A DNA stretch of 64,000 nt, taken from Salinispira pacifica. Its GTDB lineage: Bacteria > Spirochaetota > Spirochaetia > DSM-27196 > Salinispiraceae. Positions within the stretch are counted from its first letter, which is position 1. Each line of letters opens with the position of its first letter. The stretch lies in assembly GCF_000507245.1 (NCBI RefSeq), contig NC_023035.1, positions 2,523,570 to 2,587,569 on the forward strand. The letters run 5' to 3'. Below are positions 44,708 to 46,698 of the stretch, one piece after another. A model generated the notes under the pieces. That model made no database searches. It was not told the origin of the DNA and saw only the letters and a program-made list of their open reading frames with translations. The position numbers were made by a program, and so were the translations under genes.

Positions 44708-44736
44708 TTGACATATGCCCGGCATAACGGCATTAT
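44708..44736 (+). promoter_or_regulatory. Promoter of the leuA leader
   Basis: A consensus TTGACA (44708-44713), exactly 17 bp, then CATTAT (44731-44736). The predicted start of transcription is about 44742-44744, only two to four bases before the ATG of the leader peptide, so the leader mRNA would be nearly leaderless. Confidence 0.75.
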
Positions 44737-44745
44737 TAGGGTACT

Positions 44746-44844
44746 ATGAACAGAATCACAGGCACAGCAGACATTCCCACCCTACTCCTACTAGGTTTGA
44801 ACTCTTACTGCTGCAGTGCGTGTGTCTGTATCCAGAACCGGTAA
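44746..44844 (+). CDS. leuA leader peptide, 32 residues, Leu-rich
   Basis: ATG at 44746, TAA at 44842-44844. The product reads MNRITGTADIP, then T followed by four leucines encoded CTA CTC CTA CTA (44782-44793), GL, and a Cys-rich tail. Four consecutive Leu codons, three of them the usually rare CTA, in front of a leucine biosynthesis gene are the classic sign of a translation-sensing attenuator leader: ribosomes stall here when leucyl-tRNA is scarce. No ribosome site precedes it, and the nearby promoter suggests leaderless start. It is too short for ordinary gene finding. Confidence 0.8.
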   Translation: MNRITGTADIPTLLLLGLNSYCCSACVCIQNR

Positions 44845-44905
44845 TATCCGCTTCTGGAAACGACAACGGAAATCACACCCGCTGCATACACGCAGCGGGT
44901 TTTTT
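44817..44905 (+). terminator. leuA attenuator: antiterminator and terminator
   Basis: Terminator: CCCGCTGC (44878-44885) pairs with GCAGCGGG (44892-44899), extended by an A-T pair, followed by six T residues. Alternative: TGCGTGTGT (44817-44825), inside the leader peptide 24 bases after the Leu codons, pairs over nine positions (one G-U) with ATACACGCA (44886-44894), which uses up the terminator's 3' arm and loop. A small hairpin CCAGAA/TTCTGG (44832-44857) lies between. A ribosome stalled on the Leu codons leaves 44817-44825 free; one at the stop codon covers it. This predicts leuA expression at low leucine. Folding done by hand. Confidence 0.75.
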
Positions 44906-44961
44906 ATTGCCCGGACTCCGGGGATCGGAATTCCCGGAATCAGAAAACGATGGAGGATCGT

Positions 44962-46698
44962 ATGTCAAAGTATAAAGCCTACCCCCAGGTGAATCTGCAC
45001 GAAAGACAGTGGCCGAATAACCGGATAACCCGCCATCCCCTGTGGTGCACAGTTGATCTCAGGGACGGAAATCAGGCACTTGCCCAGCCCATGAATATTC
45101 AGGAGAAGGAAAGAATGTTCAACCTCCTGGTGGAAATGGGGTTCAAACAGATTGAAATAGGCTTTCCCAGCGCCAGTCAGATTGAATACGATTTTCTCAG
45201 AACTCTCATCGATAACAACATGGTACCTGATGATGTGGCCGTGCAGGTTCTCACCCAGAGCAGAAAACATCTTATCGAGAGAACGGTGCAAAGCCTGAAA
45301 GGCGTAAAGCGGGCGGTTCTTCACTTATATAATTCCACATCGGAACAGCAGCGGAGGATTACCTTCAGAAAAAACAAGGAAGAGATTAAACAGATCGCCC
45401 TGGAAGGGACTCAGAATGTCATCGATCTCCTGGATGAGCTGGAAAACACTGAACTGATTTTTCAATACAGCCCCGAGAGCTTTACCGGCACGGAACTTGA
45501 ATATGCAGTGGAGGTGTGTGATGCGGTAATTGATCTCTGGGATCCTGCAAAGCGGGGAAAGATGATCATTAATCTTCCCGCCACCGTGGAGTTAAGTACA
45601 CCCAATATTTTCGCAGACCAGATCGAATGGATGATCAGACATCTGAAACGCAGGGATGAAGTGATTATCTCCCTGCACACCCACAATGACAGAGGTACCG
45701 GGGTGGCTGCCACCGAGCTGGGACTGATGGCCGGCGCCGACCGTGTGGAAGGCACCCTCTTCGGGAACGGTGAACGAACCGGCAATGTGGATATAATCAC
45801 CCTTGCATTGAACATGTACAGCCAGGGTGTTGATCCGGGGCTGGATCTTCACAATATCCCCCGAATCAGGCGGATCTATGAAGAGACTACCAGAATGCAC
45901 GTGCACGAACGCCATCCCTACGGGGGAGATCTTGTTTTCACTGCATTCAGCGGAAGCCATCAGGATGCGATCAGCAAGGGCATGGCCCTGGTGGACAAGG
46001 ATCCCCAGAGCCGCTGGGACGTACCCTATCTGCCCATTGACCCCCAGGATATCGGCCGGAGCTACGAAGCAATTATCAGGATCAACAGCCAGAGCGGAAA
46101 AGGTGGCGTTGCGTATGTTCTGGAGAACGAATACGGATTGAAGATCCCCCGGAGCCTGCAGCCGGAAATCGGCACCCACATCAATTCAATTTCCGATCAG
46201 CTTGTACGGGAATTATCAAGTTCGGAAATTAAGCATGCCTTCGACAGGGAGTATGTAAACCGCCGGGATAAACTGGCTCTGGCAGAATATGCTCTCTCCA
46301 GGGGACATCACAGCGGAGATGTGAATTTTCACGGCAGCGTGGAACTTGAAGGTACAGAGTATCCGGTTGAGGGCACGGGGAACGGCCCCATCAGCGCCTT
46401 CATGAACGGCCTGAATGCCCTGTTCGATCTGCAGATGAGCGTAGCCGAGTATGAGGAGCAGGCCATCGGAGCAGGCTCGGCCACCGAAGCGGCAGCCTAT
46501 ATCCGGGTGGAAGCCCGGGACGGACACAGTATCTGGGGAGTCGGCAGAGACACGGATACTTCAGCGGCCCAGTTCACCGCCATCCTCAGCGCCATGAATC
46601 GCTGGAAGTCCATGGAGTTCCGGGTGCACCCCCATGCGGTTCCGGCCGGGGCGACAGCCGCCGGAAGCAGCAGTTCCGGGGAGGCCGGGAGAGAGTAG
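44962..46698 (+). CDS. leuA: 2-isopropylmalate synthase, long (type 2) form
   Basis: First committed step of leucine synthesis: acetyl-CoA plus 2-oxoisovalerate to 2-isopropylmalate. Catalytic barrel: WCTVDLRDGNQAL (metal Asp), FKQIEIGFPSASQIEYDF and IISLHTHNDRGTGVAATEL (metal-binding His pair), GTLFGNGERTGNVD. The C-terminal third is the LeuA regulatory domain (VELEGTEYPVEGTGNGPISAF, DTDTSAAQFTAILSAMNRW), the usual leucine feedback site. About 578 residues, the length of the yeast/actinobacterial type. ATG 44962 has GGAGG five bases upstream, better than ATG 44950. Expressed behind the attenuator. Citramalate synthase is excluded by the overall pattern but not by test. Confidence 0.93.
   Translation: MSKYKAYPQVNLHERQWPNNRITRHPLWCTVDLRDGNQALAQPMNIQEKERMFNLLVEMGFKQIEIGFPSASQIEYDFLRTLIDNNMVPDDVAVQVLTQSRKHLIERTVQSLKGVKRAVLHLYNSTSEQQRRITFRKNKEEIKQIALEGTQNVIDLLDELENTELIFQYSPESFTGTELEYAVEVCDAVIDLWDPAKRGKMIINLPATVELSTPNIFADQIEWMIRHLKRRDEVIISLHTHNDRGTGVAATELGLMAGADRVEGTLFGNGERTGNVDIITLALNMYSQGVDPGLDLHNIPRIRRIYEETTRMHVHERHPYGGDLVFTAFSGSHQDAISKGMALVDKDPQSRWDVPYLPIDPQDIGRSYEAIIRINSQSGKGGVAYVLENEYGLKIPRSLQPEIGTHINSISDQLVRELSSSEIKHAFDREYVNRRDKLALAEYALSRGHHSGDVNFHGSVELEGTEYPVEGTGNGPISAFMNGLNALFDLQMSVAEYEEQAIGAGSATEAAAYIRVEARDGHSIWGVGRDTDTSAAQFTAILSAMNRWKSMEFRVHPHAVPAGATAAGSSSSGEAGRE

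Follow-up and report, generated by a model that had tools for sequence, protein, structure and literature searches.

The DNA upstream of leuA, the 2-isopropylmalate synthase gene, in a 64,000-nucleotide stretch of the Salinispira pacifica genome (the window; all positions are counted from its first letter) is, with a probability of about 0.92, a ribosome-mediated transcription attenuator. This identification is based on the parts of the element, their conservation, the alternative folds of the leader RNA and the codon bias of the leader. S. pacifica L21-RPul-D2 is a halophilic spirochaete (PMC4511686) from a little-studied group, with a genome of 3,782,798 bp in one contig; a preliminary description of this DNA had rightly taken its host for a probable spirochaete. 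The same description had proposed the classical attenuation logic, which is supported here by folds gated by the position of the ribosome, a conserved leucine (Leu) run, an excess of CTA and exclusively synonymous change within the run. The promoter, the 32-residue leader with CTA CTC CTA CTA and the Rho-independent terminator that it named are all present where it had placed them:

44708 to 44736, plus strand: sigma-70-type promoter TTGACA-N17-CATTAT, with TTGACA at 44708-44713 and CATTAT at 44731-44736 (10/12 consensus matches).
44746 to 44844, plus strand: leader open reading frame (ORF) with ATG start and 32 codons, encoding the 32-amino-acid peptide MNRITGTADIPTLLLLGLNSYCCSACVCIQNR; predicted to be leaderless.
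44782 to 44799, plus strand: control codons CTA CTC CTA CTA GGT TTG (LLLLGL), within the leader ORF.
44877 to 44905, plus strand: intrinsic terminator (3:4), with a 9-bp stem (44877-44885/44892-44900), a 6-nt loop and a T run.

The terminator stem has an energy of -18.4 kcal/mol. Both strands of the window were scanned for ORFs of 10-60 codons with at least five Leu in eight residues, followed at a distance of 15-110 nt by a strong terminator. This arrangement occurred once, upstream of leuA, and in none of five dinucleotide-preserving shuffles of the window. The locus combines a leader ORF with Leu codons, an intrinsic terminator, a computed antiterminator that excludes it and a downstream gene making the amino acid that would be sensed.

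Inferred points in the mechanism that we propose are the transcription start, leader translation, the signal and the direction of the response. RNA polymerase would start some 2-4 nt ahead of the leader ATG, giving a transcript with a nearly bare 5' end on which a ribosome would load. When leucyl-tRNA is plentiful, this ribosome would cross CTA CTC CTA CTA, reach the stop codon and cover segment 2; the 3:4 terminator would then form and transcription would end at about 44905. If no ribosome has loaded, the 1:2 hairpin would hold segment 2 and the terminator would form again. When charged tRNA-Leu is scarce (chiefly the isoacceptor reading CUA), the ribosome would stall in the run and open 1:2, and the freed segment 2 would pair with the 5' arm of the terminator before its 3' arm is made, resulting in read-through into leuA.

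Computed folding gave -59.5 kcal/mol (z = -5.2) for the 168-nt leader and the following structures besides the terminator:

44750 to 44829, plus strand: protector hairpin 1:2, pairing 44750-44776 with 44799-44829; long and imperfect, forming when no ribosome is on the leader.
44812 to 44886, plus strand: antiterminator 2:3 of the stalled-ribosome state, composed of 44812-44818/44880-44886, 44820-44824/44874-44878 and 44825-44829/44866-44870 (7+5+5 bp).
44831 to 44858, plus strand: hairpin spanning the leader stop codon, enclosed by the antiterminator.

With no ribosome bound, the leader pairs internally and leaves the terminator free. The stalled state was modelled by masking all bases up to 12 nt past the stalled codon. 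Partition function calculations gave a probability of 0.88 in this state, against 0.01 without a ribosome, for pairing of the leader tail with the 5' arm of the terminator and its upstream flank; shuffled leader tails reached a mean of 0.30 (p = 0.015 relative to the observed 0.88). Folding the RNA in two states, the check put forward in the preliminary description, therefore shows two alternative folds gated by the position of the ribosome. The competing hairpins of that description were borne out, while its choice of partner segment was not: the favoured pairing involves the 5' arm of the terminator together with its immediate upstream flank, not mainly the 3' arm and loop. A 9-bp pairing with the 3' arm and loop (44817-44825/44886-44894) is possible on paper and is not the favoured fold. 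As the transcript grows, the antiterminator pairing of the stalled state stays at or above 0.86 until position 44897 is reached, after which the terminator wins at equilibrium. Across 26 leaders of related genomes, the mean competing pairing was 0.59 versus 0.41 in the null, with a combined p of 6e-4 that is too small because the leader sequences are related.

Several of the folding results weigh against an attenuator. Even with a stalled ribosome, the complete transcript preferentially forms the terminator at equilibrium (0.92-0.99), so that antitermination must be kinetic, with the antiterminator forming first; the two states are distinguished only co-transcriptionally and not by the equilibrium fold of the full transcript. 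Among the relatives, the competing pairing is not above the null at several loci (L010, L015-L020), and the no-ribosome state is not distinct at L002, L008, L018 and L059. As a positive control, Escherichia coli leuL was run through the same code and showed the same folding behaviour as the S. pacifica leader (0.60 stalled, 0.005 unstalled), with the terminator likewise favoured at equilibrium. Activity is not provable from sequence alone, and the element could be a once-working attenuator that is now degenerate in this S. pacifica strain. We regard this as the least probable of the alternatives considered here: the promoter, the ORF, the control codons, all three helices and the terminator are intact, and the contrast between the stalled and the free state is the largest among the leaders tested.

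Conservation of the leader provides a second line of evidence for attenuation. The preliminary description had staked its claim on finding a Leu run upstream of leuA in relatives, and the run is conserved: a Leu- or Leu/Ile-rich leader followed by a terminator is present at 25/25 leuA loci of the order whose upstream sequence was usable, S. pacifica included. Only the Leu run is conserved in the peptide, the rest of which is not. The leuA at five of these loci (L026-L030) is of a different type that shares only about 25% identity with that of S. pacifica; the leaders there mostly combine Leu with Ile codons (e.g., MRGILNVTIILLPLLGLIIIGG), which suggests a sensor of two amino acids. Outside the order but within the class, leader and terminator were found in families f9 (3/3) and f13 (1/1), while the f10 group is mostly without them. 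At the end of the Leu run, CTCGCTCTA is identical across several families (L010, L011, L013-L017, L019, L020), beyond what the amino acids need.

The codons of the run point in the same direction. CTA occurs at least once in the Leu run of 20/20 leaders and makes up 24% of the Leu codons in leader runs; in leuA genes from these genomes, its share is 1.5%. For E. coli, theory points to CUA as the most suitable codon for leu control, and replacement of CUA by CUG desensitises the leu attenuator of Salmonella (PMC1183508). Pairwise comparison of four leaders from genus g8 gave 13 synonymous codon differences within the Leu run and 0 non-synonymous ones, the pattern to be expected of a translated peptide in which leucine is important.

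Leaders of this kind are not limited to leuA. The trpE gene of S. pacifica is preceded by a tryptophan (Trp) leader ORF that starts 10 nt after the TATATT of a promoter and has a strong terminator downstream:

G000:C1:218312-218371 (locus L197:113-172), upstream of trpE: Trp leader ORF MNNYAASQNLIFSSWWWLG.

Trp-rich leaders also stand before trpE in five further genomes (G004, G006, G007, G008, G010). Before leuC (6 genomes), hisG and ilvB of relatives, no convincing leader with terminator was found, so not every amino-acid gene is under such control.

Short Leu-rich peptides resemble membrane segments, and the position of the ORF is conserved; the leader could thus encode a real small protein, such as a membrane peptide, with its own terminator separating two transcription units. 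This explanation is very improbable in view of the conservation of the Leu run and not of the remaining peptide, the rare CTA in every leader and the Trp-rich counterpart before trpE. Furthermore, a promoter scan gave no site between the terminator and leuA, which would therefore be left without a promoter.

Leucine genes of other phyla use other elements, for example the actinobacterial LEU pseudoknot, which lacks a terminator (PMC1262725), and another RNA mechanism could act in S. pacifica as well: a T-box, a riboswitch, a protein-bound attenuator, or Rho-dependent control coupled to translation of the leader. We give this only a slim chance, as no Rfam family, T-box included, reached its gathering score anywhere in the window, and the locus has a clear intrinsic terminator along with regulatory codons and ribosome-gated folds. 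More specifically, the T-box model (RF00230) gave no covariance-model match in the window; Leu_leader (RF00512) did not reach its gathering score in the window and gave no match between 44000 and 46000 at E-values up to 1. Sub-threshold matches to isrK and anti-hemB at the terminator were dismissed as chance.

An attenuator in S. pacifica shares features with several known systems. Enterobacterial leuL (E. coli/Salmonella, RF00512) has the same logic of protector, antiterminator and terminator, with the terminator placed before leuA, and its four consecutive CTA codons in E. coli compare with CTA CTC CTA CTA here. Unlike it, the S. pacifica leader has no Rfam match, hence no family-level similarity in sequence and structure, its start is predicted to be leaderless, and it precedes a leuA of the TIGR00970 type followed by non-leucine genes. 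Leaderless leuA leaders are already known in Streptomyces: leuL1 and leuL2 of Streptomyces lividans, before leuA and leuS, resemble the S. pacifica leader in having a Leu-rich peptide and, before leuA, a leaderless transcript of the kind predicted for S. pacifica, but no typical intrinsic terminator is present in the leuA leader of S. lividans whereas that of S. pacifica is strong (PMC8079986). The trpL attenuator of Sinorhizobium meliloti has its leader ORF at the 5' end of the RNA, as is predicted for S. pacifica, and differs in sensing Trp and not Leu, in belonging to the Alphaproteobacteria and in the trans functions reported for its leader RNA and peptide (PMC7298713). In the actinobacterial LEU element, leuA is likewise preceded by a leader ORF that contains a Leu run; there, however, the Leu codons pair in a pseudoknot with the Shine-Dalgarno box of leuA, and other attenuator elements are missing (PMC1262725). 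A 2013 survey with Rfam models suggested that such attenuators may stem from gammaproteobacteria, with very few transfers (PMC3766115). The spirochaete leader is missed by the Rfam model, which suggests that this view partly reflects model coverage.

The leader start codon lies close to the promoter. In S. pacifica, 9 nt separate the end of the -10 hexamer from the ATG, and the spacing is alike in most relatives. As transcription usually begins 6-7 nt past a -10 box, the 5' end of the RNA probably lies 2-4 nt ahead of the ATG, making the leader a predicted leaderless one. A promoter that has at least 9/12 consensus matches and ends 5-10 nt ahead of the leader start was found at 19/27 loci, where 0.36 were expected from shuffles. 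Automatic promoter finding was mostly unsuccessful in the f7 genera (L003-L009); on visual inspection, a GTG start follows 7-8 nt after a -10-like TTARCT at L004, L007 and L009, and L003, L005 and L006 are ambiguous. Leaderless transcripts are common in Leptospira interrogans, another spirochaete (PMC5243855). Polycysteine leaders of mycobacteria are reportedly a further case of leaderless attenuator leaders. A tentative extension, to which we give somewhat less than even odds, is that leaderless attenuation is order-wide (leuA, Leu/Ile leuA and trpE), with initiation by 70S ribosomes on the bare 5' end replacing Shine-Dalgarno loading and being required for timing. Because only 4 nt of the ORF precede segment 1, this segment would have to be occupied before 1:2 closes.

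The gene downstream of the attenuator is as follows:

44962 to 46698, plus strand: leuA, 2-isopropylmalate synthase of TIGR00970 (yeast) type; a possible alternative start is the in-frame ATG at 44950.

LeuA scores 744.8 bits against NCBIfam TIGR00970 (cut-off 697.4). The start at 44962 is more likely than that at 44950 because GGAGG lies 5 nt upstream and the proteins of relatives begin there. Genes for an acylphosphatase, a reductase, rlmN and an FAD oxidoreductase follow 3' of leuA at short distances, which makes co-transcription with leuA likely. In contrast, leuC is located about 340 kb from leuA and has no Leu leader with terminator upstream. What the attenuator controls is therefore the first committed step in leucine synthesis and not a whole leu operon. 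An attenuator for leuA, as first described, is thus retained, and the attribution to a leucine operon is not: the controlled unit consists of leuA and apparently unrelated downstream genes.

Candidate leaders were also seen at loci from Chlorobi, some Verrucomicrobia and Desulfobulbaceae/Desulfocapsa. The Chlorobi and Verrucomicrobia leuA loci L047, L048, L053, L057, L066, L068, L081 and L083 have leaders with a Leu run; at several of them, a hairpin with T run overlaps the leader stop codon and a second terminator follows about 45-65 nt on. In spirochaetes of family f32 (L181, L182, L183, L187), short ORFs with Leu-rich tails lie 6 nt after a good promoter with no clear terminator before leuA, and these loci possibly use a different form of control.

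We found no description of attenuation in spirochaetes in the literature searched, which covered few subscription journals. The S. pacifica element extends classical leader-peptide attenuation of leucine synthesis to the Spirochaetota, and the recurrence of a start codon beside the promoter makes leaderless initiation directly testable as a design element of attenuators.
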